Positions 2,366 to 40,767 of a DNA stretch of 40,767 bases are shown in pieces. The DNA is taken from positions 1 through 40,767 of the IMG/VR virus record IMGVR_UViG_3300027973_000094. One strand, given 5' to 3'. Origin of the DNA: a virus. Position numbers and translations under genes: made by a program. The notes beneath the pieces were generated by a model. That model had not been told where the DNA came from, searched no databases, and saw nothing but the letters and a program-made list of their open reading frames with translations. Numbering within the stretch: position 1 is the stretch's first letter; every line of letters starts with the position of its first letter.

Positions 2366-2569
2366 ATGAGCGACGAACTGCGCGACAAGATTGGCGAAGT
2401 GGCATCCGGCCCGAAGCGTGTCCGCACGGACGCAGGCGAGGTCGAGTCGCAGGACGTCGCCTCAATGATTGAGGCGGACAAGTACCTCGCCGCAAAGGCT
2501 GCGAGCACCGGCAGCAACACGCGGCGTGGTCTGCGGTTCAACAAGCTTATTCCGCCGGGGACGATCTAA
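2366..2569 (+). CDS. Small gpW-like head protein preceding portal
   Basis: This 67-residue charged protein starts at ATG 2366 and ends 1 base before the portal start. In lambdoid gene order the small head-completion protein gpW lies between terminase and portal, and many phages with lambda-type portals have a 60-80 residue protein here ending in a basic, proline-containing tail. This one ends RFNKLIPPGTI. gpW closes the filled head and makes the site for the tail adaptor. The match rests on size, position and tail character; I see no decisive motif. Confidence 0.55.
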   Translation: MSDELRDKIGEVASGPKRVRTDAGEVESQDVASMIEADKYLAAKAASTGSNTRRGLRFNKLIPPGTI

Positions 2570-2570
2570 C

Positions 2571-4019
2571 GTGGGCATGCTTGGCAACCTGTTTTCGCGT
2601 GGGAACAGGCCGCAGCCTGCGGCGGTGCCAGTGCGTGTCCGTGCGAAGTTTGACGCCGCCGAGCGTGGCGACGATTACCGCCACTGGTCAGCCGCTGACG
2701 CATTCGCAGCTGATACCGCACTGTCGCCAGAGAAGCGACGGACAATGCGGAATCGGGCTCGCTACGAGAGACAGAACAACTCATACCTCGCTGGCATGTC
2801 GGCCACGCTCGCCAATGATTTGGTCGGCACAGGCCCACGGCTCCAGCTGCAATTCGGCGACGACGATAGCGCTCGGATGGTTGAGCGTGCCTTCTTTGAC
2901 TGGTCGTGGCAGATCGACCTTGCGTCGAAGCTGCGGACGATGCGTGAGGCTCTGGTCGTGGACGGCGAGGCGTTCGCCATGATGATTACCAATCCACGGA
3001 TGCCGGGCGTGCAGCTTGACATTCGGCTCGTTGAAGCCGAGATGGTAAGCGAGCCGGTCAATCCAGTGAGCCCCAGCGTTTCGCCTGATGGGTCAACGGT
3101 TGACGGGCTGGAGTTTGACGCTGTCGGCAACGTCGTTGCATATCGGGTGCTGAACTACCACCCAGGCGCAAACTTCCGCATCAACGCTCTTGAGTACCAG
3201 CGCGTACCAGCAGCGCAGATGGTGCATTGGTTCCGACCGCTGCGGCCTGGTCAGCACCGTGGCATGCCCGAGGTGACGCCGGCGCTCAAGCTCTTCGCGC
3301 AACTGCGGCGATACACCGAAGCGGTATGTGCTGCTGCCGAGACTGCCGCCGACTTCGCTGGCTTCCTTCGCACGAACTCGCCAGCCGCAGAGGTGGACGA
3401 AGTCGAGGCATTCGCCGAGATGGCGATTGAGAAGCGGACGATGGTCACGCTGCCAGACGGTTGGACGTTTGAGCAGTTGAAGGCAGAGCAGCCGACATCG
3501 ACTTACGCGATGTTCAAGCGAGAACTCATCCAAGAAATTGGGCGTTGTCTCGGGCTTCCATTCAACGTGTCTGCGCTGGACTCGTCGTCATACAACTACG
3601 CATCCGGTCGCATGGACCATCAGGTCTATTCGACAACGCAGAAGATCATGCGTGACGATCTTGAGCGCAAGATGCTCGACCGTCTGCTTGAGGCGTGGGT
3701 CAATGAAGCCACGCTCGCTGGCTACGTGCCGCAAGGAGTCCCGCCTTTCTCCGAGTGGGATTGGTCTTGGCAGTGGGACGGCAAAGAGCACGTTGACCCT
3801 GCCAAGGAAGCCAACGCTGCCGAGACAAGGCTCAGAAATCACACGACCACGCTGGCGGCAGAGTACGCCAAGCAGGGCAAGCAATGGGATGTCGAGTTGA
3901 GGCAGCGTGCCGCCGAGGTGGCGCTGATGGATGAGCTTGGCTTGTTTGTCGATTTTACGCCTGAAGTGAACTACGGCGGAACTATGGACGAGAACGGCAA
4001 CCCGGATAACAACGCATGA
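2571..4019 (+). CDS. Portal protein, lambda gpB type
   Basis: The portal forms the dodecameric ring at the head vertex through which DNA enters and leaves, and to which terminase and tail dock. The 482-residue product has segments typical of the lambda portal family: an N-terminal RARYERQNNSYLAGM stretch followed by LANDLVGTGPRLQ, then a DGEAFAMMITN strand and a long helix with LKLFAQLRRYTEA. GTG at 2571 is preferred because GGGG lies 10 bases upstream and the previous stop is 1 base away. ATG at 2577 is an alternative two codons later. An upstream extension to 2469 would overlap the previous gene and is rejected. The stop overlaps the next ATG by 4 bases. Confidence 0.92.
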   Translation: MGMLGNLFSRGNRPQPAAVPVRVRAKFDAAERGDDYRHWSAADAFAADTALSPEKRRTMRNRARYERQNNSYLAGMSATLANDLVGTGPRLQLQFGDDDSARMVERAFFDWSWQIDLASKLRTMREALVVDGEAFAMMITNPRMPGVQLDIRLVEAEMVSEPVNPVSPSVSPDGSTVDGLEFDAVGNVVAYRVLNYHPGANFRINALEYQRVPAAQMVHWFRPLRPGQHRGMPEVTPALKLFAQLRRYTEAVCAAAETAADFAGFLRTNSPAAEVDEVEAFAEMAIEKRTMVTLPDGWTFEQLKAEQPTSTYAMFKRELIQEIGRCLGLPFNVSALDSSSYNYASGRMDHQVYSTTQKIMRDDLERKMLDRLLEAWVNEATLAGYVPQGVPPFSEWDWSWQWDGKEHVDPAKEANAAETRLRNHTTTLAAEYAKQGKQWDVELRQRAAEVALMDELGLFVDFTPEVNYGGTMDENGNPDNNA

Positions 4020-5833
4020 ACGCAATCAAGCTTGATTCTGGCGTCGAGTTCCTGCAAGCCGCCGAAGGCGAATCGGCACCGGATGGCAAGAAGTTCCGCA
4101 TCGTCGCTTATACCGGCGCTCAGATTCGTCAGGGCTGGAGCCGTGAGCCGGTCGTGATTGACATGGCTGGCATGCAGCTGCCGGCGACTGTGCCGGTTGT
4201 GCTCGGGCATGACTACACGCTCGGCAGCATCCTCGGGCAGGGTCGCCCGTTCTTCGAGGCTGGGCAGTTGATCGTTGAGGGCGAGATTCTCGCCCAGAAT
4301 CCCAACGCCGAGCAAGTCGCTGCACTCGCTGCCGCTGGCTACCAGTTCCAAGCAAGTGTCGGCGCTGACGTGCGTCGGCACCAAAAGATCGACGCTGAAG
4401 GCGTCACTCAAGTCAACGGAGCCGCCCATGTTGGGCCGGTTCGTATCGTCAAAGCCTCTGCTCTGCGAGAGGTTTCGTTTGTAACCCTTGGCGCTGATTC
4501 GCAGACCAGCGTCGCCATCGCGGCTGAAGCCGACGAGGAGTTTTCTATGGCGGACCACGCCACCCAGACGCCCACCGAAGAGCCCGTTGTGGCTGCGGTG
4601 GAAGCCACGGCGAGTGTCGCCGTGGAAGCCAAGCCCGAAGTCGATCACGCCGAAGTGATTGCTTCTCTCACCAAGAAAGTCGAACAGATGGAAAAGCTGA
4701 TCGCGACCCGCGACGAGCGTCCCTCGGCTCCTGCCGTCCACATGGCACAGCCGACCGCTCGCACGCCCGAAGTCATCGAGGCAGCGTTCGCCCTCCAGGG
4801 CAACCTGCCGAACGTCGAGAAGCAGTACGACGCCAAGACCCTCGAGGCCGCTGCAAAGATTCAGCGGACGACCAGCCTTGGCGAAGTGCTCCTCTCGGCT
4901 GCCGAGGAAGGTGGCTACACAGGGCCTCGCCGGGTGTCTGCTGCGACGCTGCGTCCGATCCTCGCTGCGGCGTGGGCGACCCACAGCATCAGCGGCATCC
5001 TGTCGAGCACCGTCAACAAGTTCCTCCTCGCCGGCTTCAACGGCGTTGAGTCCTCGTGGCGGTCAATCTCGTCTGTTCGCAGCGTCAACGACTTCAAGAC
5101 CGTGACGAGCTACCGGCTCAACGGCGGCATGAAGTTCCAGAAGGTTCCCAACGGCGGCGAGATCAAGAACGCCGGTCTCAGCGATGAGAGCCGGACGATC
5201 TCGGCAGAGACCTACGGCATCATGACGAGCGTCACTCGCACTGACCTCATCAACGATGACCTCGGTGCCCTGACCGCTGCCCCGCAGCGGATCGGTCGTG
5301 GTGGTGCTCTCGCTCTGAACGATCTGTTCTGGGCGGCGTTCCAGGACGACTCCAGCTTCTTCACCACGGCTCGTGGCAACAAGAAGACGACTGCCGGTGC
5401 TCTCTCGCTCGCGAACCTCAAGGCTATCGCCACGATGTTCCGCAAGCTGAAAGACCCGGACGGCAACCCGGTTGCTGTTGAGCCTCGGGTTCTGCTCGTT
5501 CCGGCTGACATCGAGTTGGCTGCTGCCGAGATCATGGGCTCCTCGCTCCTGATCAGTGGCAACACGACTGCGGCTCCTAACGTGAACGTGCTTGCCGGGC
5601 GGTATCAGGTCGTTTCGACCAGCTACCTGTCCAGCGCCGAGGACTACTACCTCCTCGCCTCGCCGGCTGATCTGCCGGTGATGGAAGTGGCGTTCTTGAA
5701 CGGCGTTCAGTCGCCCATCGTTGAGACGGCGGAAGCCGACTTCTCGACGCTCGGCGTGCAGATGCGTGGCTACTTCGACGTTGGCGTTGCCAAGGCCGAG
5801 TACCTCGCCGGCATCAAGGCCGACGTGTCGTGA
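4016..5833 (+). CDS. Fused prohead protease, scaffold and major capsid protein
   Basis: The protein has 605 residues. Residues 1 to about 175 resemble the HK97/S78-type prohead protease: VVLGHDYT gives His65, QASVGAD gives Ser114, and LREVSFVTLGAD closes the fold. Residues about 178-250 are acidic with a short coiled coil (IASLTKKVEQMEKLIA), as expected of a scaffold or delta domain. Residues about 250-605 look like an HK97-fold capsid protein. After assembly the protease would remove the scaffold and itself. An in-frame ATG at 4547 (Met178) has GAGGAG 6 bases upstream and could produce a scaffold-capsid polypeptide of 428 residues without protease. Start ATG 4016 overlaps the portal stop. 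Confidence 0.85.
   Translation: MNAIKLDSGVEFLQAAEGESAPDGKKFRIVAYTGAQIRQGWSREPVVIDMAGMQLPATVPVVLGHDYTLGSILGQGRPFFEAGQLIVEGEILAQNPNAEQVAALAAAGYQFQASVGADVRRHQKIDAEGVTQVNGAAHVGPVRIVKASALREVSFVTLGADSQTSVAIAAEADEEFSMADHATQTPTEEPVVAAVEATASVAVEAKPEVDHAEVIASLTKKVEQMEKLIATRDERPSAPAVHMAQPTARTPEVIEAAFALQGNLPNVEKQYDAKTLEAAAKIQRTTSLGEVLLSAAEEGGYTGPRRVSAATLRPILAAAWATHSISGILSSTVNKFLLAGFNGVESSWRSISSVRSVNDFKTVTSYRLNGGMKFQKVPNGGEIKNAGLSDESRTISAETYGIMTSVTRTDLINDDLGALTAAPQRIGRGGALALNDLFWAAFQDDSSFFTTARGNKKTTAGALSLANLKAIATMFRKLKDPDGNPVAVEPRVLLVPADIELAAAEIMGSSLLISGNTTAAPNVNVLAGRYQVVSTSYLSSAEDYYLLASPADLPVMEVAFLNGVQSPIVETAEADFSTLGVQMRGYFDVGVAKAEYLAGIKADVS
4535..4549 (+). promoter_or_regulatory. Internal ribosome binding site and start inside protease-capsid gene
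   Basis: GAGGAG at 4535-4540 is followed 6 bases later by ATG at 4547, in frame with the fusion and exactly at the protease-scaffold boundary. In lambda an internal start inside the protease gene C makes the scaffold Nu3. Here an analogous start would make the scaffold-capsid part in excess over protease. Two Glu codons in a row can produce GAGGAG by chance, so this is a good but unproven site. Confidence 0.5.
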
Positions 5834-5927: not shown

Positions 5928-6251
5928 ATGGCTGATTATGTTCAGGGCGACTGCCTGTTGGACTACACGCCGTCTTCCGCAGTTGCGGCTGGCGACGTTG
6001 TCGTGCTTGGCGATCTCGTGACCGTTGCTCCTCGGGCTATCGCTGCCAACGCACTCGGTGCCGTGGCAATTGAGGGCGTGTTCACGCTGCCGAAGGCTTC
6101 CGGTGCGATCTCGCAGGGCGTGATCGTTTACTGGGATTCCACCAACAGCAACATCACCACGACTGCCGGCAGCAACAAGCGGGCTGGCAAGGCTGCGTAC
6201 GCTCAAGCGAGCGGCGACACGACCGTCAAGGTGTTGCTCAACCAGGGCTGA
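5928..6251 (+). CDS. Capsid decoration (cement) protein, DUF2190-like
   Basis: This 107-residue, beta-rich protein starts MADYVQGDCLLDYTP and has alternating hydrophobic strands, a central VAIEGVFTLPKA and a final TTVKVLLNQ. These are typical of DUF2190 proteins, which sit on or next to the capsid in many siphophages and are treated as cement or decoration proteins. Gene order (directly after capsid) agrees. A GGAAAG/TAGGTG-like ribosome site precedes ATG 5928. The gene is enclosed by two GC-rich hairpins (5852-5883 and 6274-6314), which suggests its message level is set separately from its neighbours. Confidence 0.75.
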   Translation: MADYVQGDCLLDYTPSSAVAAGDVVVLGDLVTVAPRAIAANALGAVAIEGVFTLPKASGAISQGVIVYWDSTNSNITTTAGSNKRAGKAAYAQASGDTTVKVLLNQG

Positions 6252-32586: not shown

Positions 32587-33417
32587 ATGAGCACGGAAAT
32601 CAGCACGCACACGCAGCCGCGAGGGCTTGCGTTGCAGTCGGTCACGGACGCCATGAAGTTCAGCGAGACGGTAGCCAATTCGGACTTTGCCCCCAAGGAT
32701 TTTCGGGGCAAGCCAGCCAGTTGCATGCTGGCGATCCAGTGCGGTGCAGAGATCGGGCTGGCCCCGCTTCAGTCGTTGCAGAGCATCGCCGTCGTGAACG
32801 GCAGGCCCAGCGTCTACGGTGACGCCGCCCTGGCTGTCTGCAAGGCCAGCAACGTCTGTGAGTACGTCACCGAGAGCATTGACGGAGACGGTGAGCAGAT
32901 GGTCGCCACATGCACGGCGAAGCGTCGAGGCTACCCGCAGCCGACCGTGGTCAAGTTCTCGGTTGCAGATGCCAAGAAGGCGAGTCTGTGGGGCAAGAGC
33001 GGCCCGTGGAGCCAGTATCCACGCCGCATGCTCCAGATGCGGGCGAGGGGCTTTGCCCTGCGTGACGCCTTCCCTGACGTTCTCAAGGGGCTTGTGACCG
33101 CAGAGGAAGCCCAAGACTACCCGCAGCCTGTTGTGGCGTCAGAACCCGTCGTGGTGCGTCCCAAGTTTGACGACCGGCCCGCTGGTGGCGTCATCAAGCT
33201 GAAGGCTTCGCCTTCCGAGCCGCAGGAGTTCTCAGCCGTTGAGAAGGCAAGGCTCGCCGTAAGTCGTGCCGCAACGCTTGAGAGGTGCGATGCGCTGCGA
33301 AAGACGACGACAGAGCGGCTTGCTGACGGCACGTTCACCCAGGCCGAGCACGACGAGATCGTGGGCCTGCTGGTCACAAAGGCGGAGATGCTGATTGGAA
33401 GCGAGGTGCCCGCATGA
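32587..33417 (+). CDS. RecT-like single-strand annealing protein
   Basis: The 276-residue protein has the RecT family hallmarks: MKFSETVANSDFAPKDFRGK, IQCGAEIGLAPLQSLQSIAV, then VNGRPSVYGDAALAV, and WSQYPRRMLQMRARGFALRD with FPDVLKGL. RecT binds single-stranded DNA and anneals complementary strands for phage recombination and repair. ATG 32587 has AAGGA 8 bases upstream. No RecE-type exonuclease gene is seen beside it; the next gene is a 78-residue unknown. Its stop overlaps the next ATG by 4 bases. Confidence 0.88.
   Translation: MSTEISTHTQPRGLALQSVTDAMKFSETVANSDFAPKDFRGKPASCMLAIQCGAEIGLAPLQSLQSIAVVNGRPSVYGDAALAVCKASNVCEYVTESIDGDGEQMVATCTAKRRGYPQPTVVKFSVADAKKASLWGKSGPWSQYPRRMLQMRARGFALRDAFPDVLKGLVTAEEAQDYPQPVVASEPVVVRPKFDDRPAGGVIKLKASPSEPQEFSAVEKARLAVSRAATLERCDALRKTTTERLADGTFTQAEHDEIVGLLVTKAEMLIGSEVPA

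Positions 33418-36341: not shown

Positions 36342-36345
<4 letters not shown>
36154..36345 (+). CDS. Small helical protein before methyltransferase
   Basis: This 63-residue acidic helical protein (PPLDVVQALMQRAWDDDISD, ILLETAAKTLEVTLDRCIRL) overlaps both the LexA-type gene and the methyltransferase start by 4 bases. No family is recognised. Confidence 0.55.
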
Positions 36346-37405
<1,060 letters not shown>

Positions 37406-37409
<4 letters not shown>

Positions 37410-37675
37410 CCACCGAAAACCTCGCCATGTTGGCCGTTGGACAAATCATCGCTGCGGGAATGTTTTCCCTCGGCGTGTTGGTTGGAAGTTCTCTACGAAA
37501 GGAATCAAAGGATGACAATGACGAAGGAACGAAAGAAGAAAGCGAGTGGCATAAGCCTCGCGGCGTCGGAATTGAAGGCGGCGCTTTCAGCCGTAGGCCA
37601 AGCGGTGCCAACACGGTCGCCAAGGCCGATCTACCAATCCGTGCTCCTATCGGGCGCGGTTCTGTCTGGGAGTGA
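37406..37675 (+). CDS. Small membrane-anchored protein overlapping the sliding clamp gene
   Basis: ATG 37406 overlaps the methyltransferase stop. Residues 5-28 (NLAMLAVGQIIAAGMFSLGV) form one membrane span, then a charged tail (KESKDDNDEGTKEESEWHK). The frame continues to 37675, 164 bases into the clamp gene in another frame, so the last 50 residues are double-coded if used. The membrane part looks genuine; the tail is uncertain. No family is recognised. Confidence 0.4.
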
Positions 37676-38630
37676 TGGAGATATTCGTATCGACGTCACG
37701 TTGGAAAACACGCCCCCCGGTATCAGCTTGCTGCTGCCGAAGGACAGGCTTTCCGCCATCCTTGGCAGTTTCACTGGCGACGAGATCACGATCACGCCTG
37801 ACGAGTCGTCGTGCCTAATCAAGGCCGGCAGAGGCGAATGGACGCTGCCAACCGAGGACGCTGGCGAGTATCCGGCGTGGAACGTGGACGGTGCGAAGCC
37901 CGTCACGCGGCTTCCTGTTGACCAGTTCTGCCGTGCGGTCAAAGGCGTGGTTTTCGCCGTGGACGACGAGTCCAGCCGCTACGCTCTCGGTGCGGTGCTT
38001 GTGGAAGTTAAGGGCGAGGTTGTCACATTTGTTGCCACAGACGGTCGAAGGCTCTCCTGCGTGAACTGCGAGCACGACCTTGCGGTTGACGACTCGCAGA
38101 CGCTTGTGCCTGCACGGGCGATGGCAATCATCGCACGTCTTGCAGCTGGGTGCAGTGACGCCAGCGTGCAGCTTGAGGCAACGAAAAACGAGATCGTCGC
38201 CACGGTTGGTAACGCTACCGTCACTGCTCGTCTTCTGGACGGTCGTTACCCTCGGTGGCGTGACACGCTGCCGGATCGTGACGCCAAGGCCACGACGGTC
38301 AGCCGTGCGGATCTGCTGGCTGCTACTCGAGCGGCTGCCATCGTCACCAGCGAGGAAAGCAAGGGTGTGCAGTTCGTGTTTTCCGGCGATGGCATCTGGC
38401 TGCACGGGCAGAGCGCCGAGAAGGGCGAAAGCAGCGTTACCTGTGACGTCGTGGAAGCCGGCGACAAGGCGACGGTGAAGCTGGACCCACTGTTCGTGCA
38501 GCAGTGGCTCGGCGGCATCGACAGCGAGGCAGAGCCGGAAGTCGAAGTCGAAGCCGTGGACGCACAATCTGCCGTCATCCTGCGATGCGGCGACAACACT
38601 GGCGTGATCATGCCACTGGCGGTGGACTGA
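37512..38630 (+). CDS. dnaN: DNA polymerase III beta-like sliding clamp
   Basis: The 372-residue product is close to bacterial DnaN in length. ATG 37512 has AAAGGA 8 bases upstream; an in-frame start at 37437 is less likely. Three similar domains are visible: a first with FTGDEITITPDESSCLIKAG, a second with YALGAVLVEVKGEVVTFVAT followed by DGRRLS, and a third closing with a GVIMPL end (residues 364-369), which corresponds to the usual DnaN C-terminal MPMRL-like end. The clamp tethers polymerase to DNA. No phage DNA polymerase gene is seen, so it probably recruits the host polymerase III or phage repair enzymes. Confidence 0.88.
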   Translation: MTMTKERKKKASGISLAASELKAALSAVGQAVPTRSPRPIYQSVLLSGAVLSGSDGDIRIDVTLENTPPGISLLLPKDRLSAILGSFTGDEITITPDESSCLIKAGRGEWTLPTEDAGEYPAWNVDGAKPVTRLPVDQFCRAVKGVVFAVDDESSRYALGAVLVEVKGEVVTFVATDGRRLSCVNCEHDLAVDDSQTLVPARAMAIIARLAAGCSDASVQLEATKNEIVATVGNATVTARLLDGRYPRWRDTLPDRDAKATTVSRADLLAATRAAAIVTSEESKGVQFVFSGDGIWLHGQSAEKGESSVTCDVVEAGDKATVKLDPLFVQQWLGGIDSEAEPEVEVEAVDAQSAVILRCGDNTGVIMPLAVD

Positions 38631-38950: not shown

Positions 38951-39634
38951 ATGCGAAAAGAGAAAAAGGTGCGGCGGCAAAAACGGCCCCCCCCCGTGGC
39001 ACATCCTGGCGAAGGCTATACGCCACGCACGAAGACGCAGGAAGCCGCCTTGGACGTCATCCGGCGGAACTCCATCACGTTCATTCTCGGTCCGGCTGGC
39101 ACCGGGAAAACTCATTTGGCGAGCGGCTACGCGGTGCAGCAGCTGCTGGCCGGCACAGTCGAGCACATCGTGATCACCAGACCGAGCGTGGCGACTGAGC
39201 AACTTGGTTATCTGCCTGGAAGCGCCGAGGAAAAGGTTGGTCCGTACCTCATCCCTTTTTTCGATGCGATTGAGCGGATTGCCGGTCGCAAGGGTCACAC
39301 GAAGGACAGGGAAAGAGTCGGTGCGGCGGTGAAAATAGCCCCCCTCGCTTATCTGCGTGGCAGGACGTTTCGCAACAGCGTCATCATCCTTGACGAGGCG
39401 CAGAACACCACGTTCAGCCAGTTGAAGTTGTTCCTGACACGCATCGGCGAAGGTTCCAAGGTGATCGTCACTGGCGACGCTGACCAAAGCGATTTGCCAC
39501 GCAGCGAGCGACGCCTGATTGACGTCATGCAGCGCCTTGCGGCGATCAAAGGCGTTGGCGTCGTTGAGTTCGCAGCCAGCGACATCGTGCGGCATCCAAT
39601 CATTGAGAACGTGCTCAAAGAGTTGGAACGCTAA
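38951..39634 (+). CDS. phoH: PhoH-like ATPase
   Basis: The 227-residue protein has Walker A ILGPAGTGKTHLA (46-57) and Walker B VIILDEAQN (144-152), then a KVIVTGDADQSDLP sensor segment and an ITRPSVATEQLGYLPGS stretch, all typical of PhoH. PhoH-like ATPases are common in phages from aquatic settings; the function is uncertain, with RNA helicase or ribonuclease-linked roles proposed. A run of nine C near 38987-38995 encodes PPP and could be misread in sequencing. Confidence 0.92.
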   Translation: MRKEKKVRRQKRPPPVAHPGEGYTPRTKTQEAALDVIRRNSITFILGPAGTGKTHLASGYAVQQLLAGTVEHIVITRPSVATEQLGYLPGSAEEKVGPYLIPFFDAIERIAGRKGHTKDRERVGAAVKIAPLAYLRGRTFRNSVIILDEAQNTTFSQLKLFLTRIGEGSKVIVTGDADQSDLPRSERRLIDVMQRLAAIKGVGVVEFAASDIVRHPIIENVLKELER

Positions 39635-40019: not shown

Positions 40020-40229
40020 ATGACTCAAGAACTCATACGCATGGAGTTTCTTGGCGGCCCGCTGGACGGCGCTATTCGGCCCGTCCCGGCGGGCGTCGAG
40101 GCATTGCCGCTTGCCGATGGTCTTGTGATTCATCTCTACACAATCGACGAGATTTACACGGGACACGGCGTGCGTCAGGTCATGAAGCACACGAAGATTC
40201 TGAACGTCGGAAGTGAGCGACGGAAATGA
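40020..40229 (+). CDS. Small phage protein (FLGGPLDG type)
   Basis: The 69-residue protein has MEFLGGPLDGAIRPVP near the start, a motif shared by many small phage proteins of unknown function, and a beta-rich remainder (LVIHLYTIDEIYTG). Its stop overlaps the next ATG by 4 bases. Confidence 0.6.
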   Translation: MTQELIRMEFLGGPLDGAIRPVPAGVEALPLADGLVIHLYTIDEIYTGHGVRQVMKHTKILNVGSERRK

Positions 40230-40636
40230 AGGCAATCACGTTCAGCGTCGCAGGCGATCCAGTGCCGCAACCTCGAGCACGGATCACAACTCGCGGCAAG
40301 TTCGCTCATGCGTACACGCCGAAGAAACATCCGATAAACGATTACCGAAATGCAATATCGCAAAATGCGATAGAAGCGATGGGCGACGCAGAGCCGACGA
40401 CAGAGCCGGTAAGCGTTGTCATTGACGCTGTGTTCGCACGACCGAAGTCACACATGACGAAGCGTGGCGTGAAGGCGACAGCGCCGAAGCTTCCACGACC
40501 TGACTGCGACAACATTGCAAAGGGCGTGCTTGATGCACTGGCGTTGATCGTATGGCTTGATGACACGCTGGTGCAGCGACTTGTGGTGGAGAAGAGCTAT
40601 GGCGATGAAGCGAGGACGACGGTGAGGGTGCAGTAA
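40226..40636 (+). CDS. rusA: RusA-type Holliday junction resolvase
   Basis: The 136-residue protein shows the RusA signature: GDPVPQPRARITTRGKFAH near the start, PKLPRPDCDNIAKGVLDALA with catalytic-type aspartates, and VWLDDTLVQRLVVEKSY. RusA cuts four-way DNA junctions, resolving recombination and replication intermediates before packaging. It is the last gene in the window. Confidence 0.9.
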   Translation: MKAITFSVAGDPVPQPRARITTRGKFAHAYTPKKHPINDYRNAISQNAIEAMGDAEPTTEPVSVVIDAVFARPKSHMTKRGVKATAPKLPRPDCDNIAKGVLDALALIVWLDDTLVQRLVVEKSYGDEARTTVRVQ

Positions 40637-40740: not shown

Positions 40741-40767
40741 CCCCCCCCCCCCCCCCCCCCCCCCCCC
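40741..40767. other. Terminal poly-C run, probable artefact
   Basis: The last 27 bases are all C. Two-colour sequencers give false G runs when signal is lost, which appear as C runs on the other strand, and assemblies often stop there. Confidence 0.8.

Follow-up and report, generated by a model that had tools for sequence, protein, structure and literature searches.

An in-frame start site conserved at the protease/linker boundary of phage protease-capsid fusion genes and its predicted capsid precursor

The window, a 40.8-kb virus record, carries a tailed-phage head module in which a prohead protease and a major capsid protein share one open reading frame (ORF). We regard it as probable that this ORF is a nested gene, which would encode (i) a 605 aa protease-linker-capsid protein; and (ii) an independently started 428 aa linker-capsid protein serving as the bulk shell subunit. 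At the boundary between protease and linker, a putative start site was found to be conserved at the nucleotide level, and this conservation extends across fusions with two different protease folds. From these comparisons we infer the use of the internal start by ribosomes, the ratio of the two products, their co-assembly and their cleavage.

The fusion ORF is uninterrupted for 605 codons, and its annotated start at 4016 overlaps the stop codon of the portal gene as ATGA. The features of the head module are as follows:

71-1909: terminase
2469-4019: lambda-type portal
4016..5833, + strand: prohead protease, scaffold-like linker and major capsid protein fusion (605 aa, ATG start)
4016..4546, + strand: assemblin-fold (U35/S78-type) protease domain, residues 1-177
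4535..4540, + strand: GAGGAG, putative Shine-Dalgarno (SD) sequence of the internal start, read from the sequence (AGGAG/AGGA conserved in relatives)
4541-4546, + strand: spacer TTTTCT, read from the sequence
4547..4549, + strand: internal in-frame ATG (Met178), conserved in close relatives and clusters
4547..5833, + strand: predicted short product of linker, coiled helix and capsid (428 aa, same frame and stop)
4646..4714, + strand: linker helix predicted by AlphaFold2, residues 211-233, putatively a scaffold (delta-like)
4766..5833, + strand: HK97-fold major capsid domain, Mu gpT-like (PF25209; JBD30 and Mu capsids), with moderate model confidence
5928..6251, + strand: head decoration protein, downstream of the fusion gene (phrog_122, 5.9e-24; PF09956)

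Profile searches matched the fusion ORF to NF045541 (E 1.8e-72), Pfam PF25209 (8e-39, over cut-off) and phrog_4523 (1.5e-63). The NF045541 score of 244.9 bits was below the curated cut-off of 525, and the window protein is thus a relative of this family and not a curated member. The capsid domain exceeded the curated cut-offs of both PF25209 (134.9 bits vs 27) and PF10124 (36.9 vs 20.1). HMM matches to the protease part were weak (TIGR01543, E 2e-4); AlphaFold2 modelled the protease fold with confidence over roughly residues 22-170, with its last strand at 165-168, and this model was aligned with T4 gp21 (5jbl; Z 10.5, rmsd 2.7, 125 residues) and with herpesvirus proteases (Z 7-9). Three residues, His65, Ser114 and Glu152, were invariant among 41 diverse relatives, His65 and Ser114 being the presumed catalytic residues, as in the family. 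An N-terminal prohead protease and a C-terminal HK97-type capsid were therefore found in one open frame with no stop codon between linker and capsid, bearing out the reading of this ORF in the earlier note as a fusion, with the protease now assigned to the assemblin fold (U35-type). All intact close relatives found were likewise single fused ORFs, and among named bacterial genomes the closest that encode a homologue were planctomycete MAGs, at about 41% identity. With regard to Met178, the protease fold was predicted to end near residue 170 and to be followed by a disordered linker (residues 174-210), which places this methionine directly past the protease, as had been proposed. The site had also been termed a scaffold boundary; its position at the end of the protease stands, but protease/linker boundary is the better description, as the helix that resembles a scaffold starts near residue 211, downstream of Met178, and would thus be retained by the short product.

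Several features were observed elsewhere in the window. A collagen-like Gly-X-Y protein (PF01391; 6913-7917, + strand) is encoded between the head and tail genes, and a tyrosine integrase (PF00589; 30115-31086, - strand) suggests that the phage is temperate. A DNA polymerase sliding clamp, DnaN (PF02767, phrog_947), is encoded at 37437-38630 (+ strand), with RecT (32587-33417), RusA (40226-40636) and PhoH (38951-39634) nearby. Two overlapping frames, 36342-37409 and 36412-37401 (+ strand), both matched DNA methyltransferases (phrog_363, 1.8e-84; phrog_1008, 1.4e-25) and resemble Paenibacillus phage genes annotated 'DNA cytosine methyltransferase (x2)'. The third-position GC was lower in this overlap (0.55) than in the portal gene (0.69) or the fusion gene (0.76), and by its sequence the arrangement looks like dual coding. 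A perfect (AC)14.5 dinucleotide repeat at 36510-36538 lies within both frames; a change in its length would shift the methyltransferase frame, making phase variation possible. The contig ends in 27 consecutive C (40741-40767), probably a sequencing or assembly artefact.

The GAGGAG hexamer that the earlier note had placed 6 bases upstream of Met178 was confirmed, and the range it gave for this site, 4535-4560, was right. When the whole ORF was scanned for in-frame start codons with an SD core 4-9 nt upstream, only TTG4268 and ATG4547 were detected. The calculated anti-SD duplex energy was -8.4 kcal/mol at 4547 vs -3.3 at the annotated start 4016. By predicted RNA structure, the region around 4547 was not more open than that around 4016, and RNA accessibility was dropped as a discriminator since it did not separate the two starts.

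Conservation of the site was examined in 64 distinct close relatives. The internal ATG was kept in all 64, preceded by AGGAG in 61 and by AGGA in 63, such that the GAGGAG-ATG arrangement, whose absence in relatives had been named as the refuting outcome, was found to be present. The hexamer was GAGGAG in 55 relatives, CAGGAG in 6, GAGGAA in 2 and GAAGAA in 1; the CAGGAG form exchanges Glu for Gln and leaves AGGAG unchanged. The spacer was six bases long in all 64, while its bases and amino acids varied. As evidence of selection on nucleotides, the conservation of Glu codons within the window's own clade proved weak, with the GAG codon conserved in 8 of 25 conserved Glu columns, which is not unusual; this test was replaced by cross-clade tests of codon phase and codon pairs.

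The site was next considered across 80%-identity clusters. The pattern of the first viral scan had included the boundary peptide, for which it could have selected, and its conservation count was biased; the search was therefore redone with capsid-only profiles and patterns near the capsid C-terminus, and the conclusion held. A cluster was scored as positive when an in-frame ATG or GTG with AGGA, GGAG or GAGG 4-9 nt upstream was located just after the protease. By this measure, 39 of 42 clusters carried an in-frame start with an SD, against 4.6 expected by codon shuffle, while the same zone gave 4 and 0 in the other two frames. One of the three remaining clusters (L218) has CAGGGGGACAAGACC ahead of an ATG. 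Even in relatives at 58-64% capsid identity, where the linker was unalignable, an SD-preceded start was found 19-31 residues past the protease motif. As judged by these cluster tests, the boundary start is more frequent than chance.

The set was enlarged by two further scans and by a scan of one bacterial phylum. Of 294 planctomycete-phylum genomes, 58 had a match to a protease-capsid fusion, and several of these carried three or four copies, indicating that such prophages are common there. The layout seen in the window was also found in cultured phages, including Paracoccus Psul1 (Met223), Rhodobacter RcKemmy (Met215), Stenotrophomonas S1 (Met207), Pseudomonas F10 (Met220), LPPA33 (Met213) and Hafnia yong2 (Met176); the protease of the cultured fusion phages is assemblin-like in some and ClpP-like in others. 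When clusters were assigned to protease types by sequence and the stretch from 160 to 50 residues ahead of the capsid core was analysed, an in-frame site was present in (i) 41 of 42 window- or planctomycete-type clusters (16.4 expected); (ii) 36 of 46 other assemblin-type clusters (13.5 expected); and (iii) 50 of 63 ClpP-type clusters (16.3 expected), the last rising to 61 of 63 (20.0 expected) with a spacer of up to 11 nt. A control zone located within the capsid gave 0-7 in-frame hits (0, 6 and 5 by set). In every group, a profile free of protease motifs peaked sharply, and in frame only, at 76-125 residues upstream of the capsid core. In Faecalibacterium phage FP_Epona the protease and capsid are separate genes, with the capsid start behind TATAGGAGGT at the equivalent boundary, which speaks for the internal start; against it, the boundary ATG is accompanied by a weak SD-like stretch only in Shewanella phage 1/44 and Vibrio phage 1.050. 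Two candidates for natural splits were set aside, one (L372) on account of an N-run and the other (L254, a ClpP-type fusion, region 2410-2700) because a short tandem duplication, whether real or an assembly error, shifts the frame within the protease; in the latter the internal capsid start is intact. Taken across both types, we lean toward the broader proposal that fusions with two unrelated protease folds, in several bacterial phyla, have independently kept the ribosome start of the capsid, with the protease as a minor capsid-tethered subunit whose dosage would be set by the two starts.

The boundary could be conserved for its peptide instead. Prohead proteases do cut capsid precursors, and by AlphaFold2 the boundary lies within a flexible linker, such that only the full-length fusion might be made, the protease would remove itself after assembly and E-E-x-x-M would be a peptide cleavage site. 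The peptide itself was found to be variable: of the clusters whose core is GGAG, 37 in number, no two shared the preceding pentapeptide; 29 had the core in codon phase 2 (K/Q/E-E) and 8 had it in phase 0 (G-E or G-D), and in 6 the start codon was GTG instead of ATG. In addition, AG-GAG codons were used for 24 of the 26 [KQE]E dipeptides at the site, compared with 82 of 175 at other positions of these ORFs (p 9e-6). Together, the two codon phases, the varied pentapeptides, the GTG starts and the codon bias argue strongly against a conserved cleavage site as the reason for conservation, which by these sequence comparisons acts on nucleotides; an account by cleavage of the full-length protein alone is accordingly quite improbable, although cleavage at the boundary may occur in addition to the internal start. 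Still less credible is a disused relic of a once separate capsid gene. Such an origin is compatible with FP_Epona, where the two parts are encoded separately and an SD stands at the boundary, but a relic would decay, whereas the signal lasts across about 40% identity and two unrelated protease folds.

On the preferred reading, that of a nested gene with two starts, initiation at 4016 would yield the 605 aa protease-linker-capsid protein, and independent initiation at Met178 (4547) from its own SD would yield the 428 aa linker-capsid protein. The short form would be the bulk shell subunit and the long form a minor chimeric subunit, whose capsid domain would carry the protease into the prohead, where the protease would later cut off itself and the linker. 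The product ratio is the weakest step of this mechanism because many relatives have a good SD at the upstream start as well. In many distant relatives the upstream SD equals or exceeds the internal SD in strength, and a stronger internal SD, which holds in the window, was rejected as a general rule; SD strength by itself thus does not imply an excess of capsid. That the capsid would be made in excess of the protease form, as the earlier note had suggested, is therefore put forward as a prediction. This ratio also bears on the possibility that the internal start is used but yields something other than the main shell subunit, for example a minor regulator of assembly or a subunit for nucleation. 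The good upstream SD of many relatives leaves room for such a product; against it, the short form comprises the entire capsid and linker, minus the protease only, and most shell subunits need no protease. We consider this role unlikely.

Fusions of protease and capsid are already known (PMC8508860, PMC6536676, PMC8601537; NCBIfam models). Those of the NF045541/NF045540 models (for example Pseudomonas MD8 and F10, Stenotrophomonas S1, the Rhodobacter RcC cluster and Paracoccus phages) have the same protease-linker-Mu gpT-like capsid order and, as in the window, the gene lies between those of the portal and the decoration protein. The descriptions found of these fusions are of one gene product, whereas our reading of the window is of two; the MD8 text does not mention an internal start (PMC8508860). 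No description of an internal start in protease-capsid fusions was found in the open-access literature, the coverage of which was incomplete, and this result is not proof of novelty. If our reading is correct, a single-product database annotation would miss the main capsid precursor. A protease-capsid fusion poses a stoichiometry problem, as hundreds of capsid subunits and few proteases are needed, which the conserved internal start would solve. That the same device recurs in fusions with proteases of two unrelated folds suggests that the assembly of proheads is generally constrained by the dosage of protease.

Comparable arrangements are found in other viruses. In HK97 the protease gp4 adjoins the capsid protein gp5, which has an N-terminal scaffold (delta) domain (PMC8508860); these are separate genes, whereas those of the window are fused, and the short product of the window would correspond to the gp5 layout. 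The herpesvirus protease shares the assemblin fold with that of the window. In UL26/UL26.5 the protease is fused to an assembly protein, the latter also being made alone in excess; the protein made alone comes from a second transcript, and a scaffold is the fusion partner, whereas in the window the partner is the capsid. The likeness drawn in the earlier note was to lambda C/Nu3, which phage Mu I/Z resemble as nested genes, and as an analogy of how the gene would work it is apt. As in lambda, the window has a protease and a predicted shorter, protease-free product in one frame with a common stop and an internal start after the protease, a likeness at the sequence level; in lambda, however, the internal start yields a separate scaffold and another gene encodes the capsid, whereas the nested product of the window would include the capsid. 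The lambda nu3 start, with GGAG 15 nt upstream, farther than in the window, was tried as a positive control and falls outside the SD criterion, which indicates that the criterion is conservative. The window may thus extend the nested-gene logic of lambda C/Nu3 from the scaffold to the capsid.
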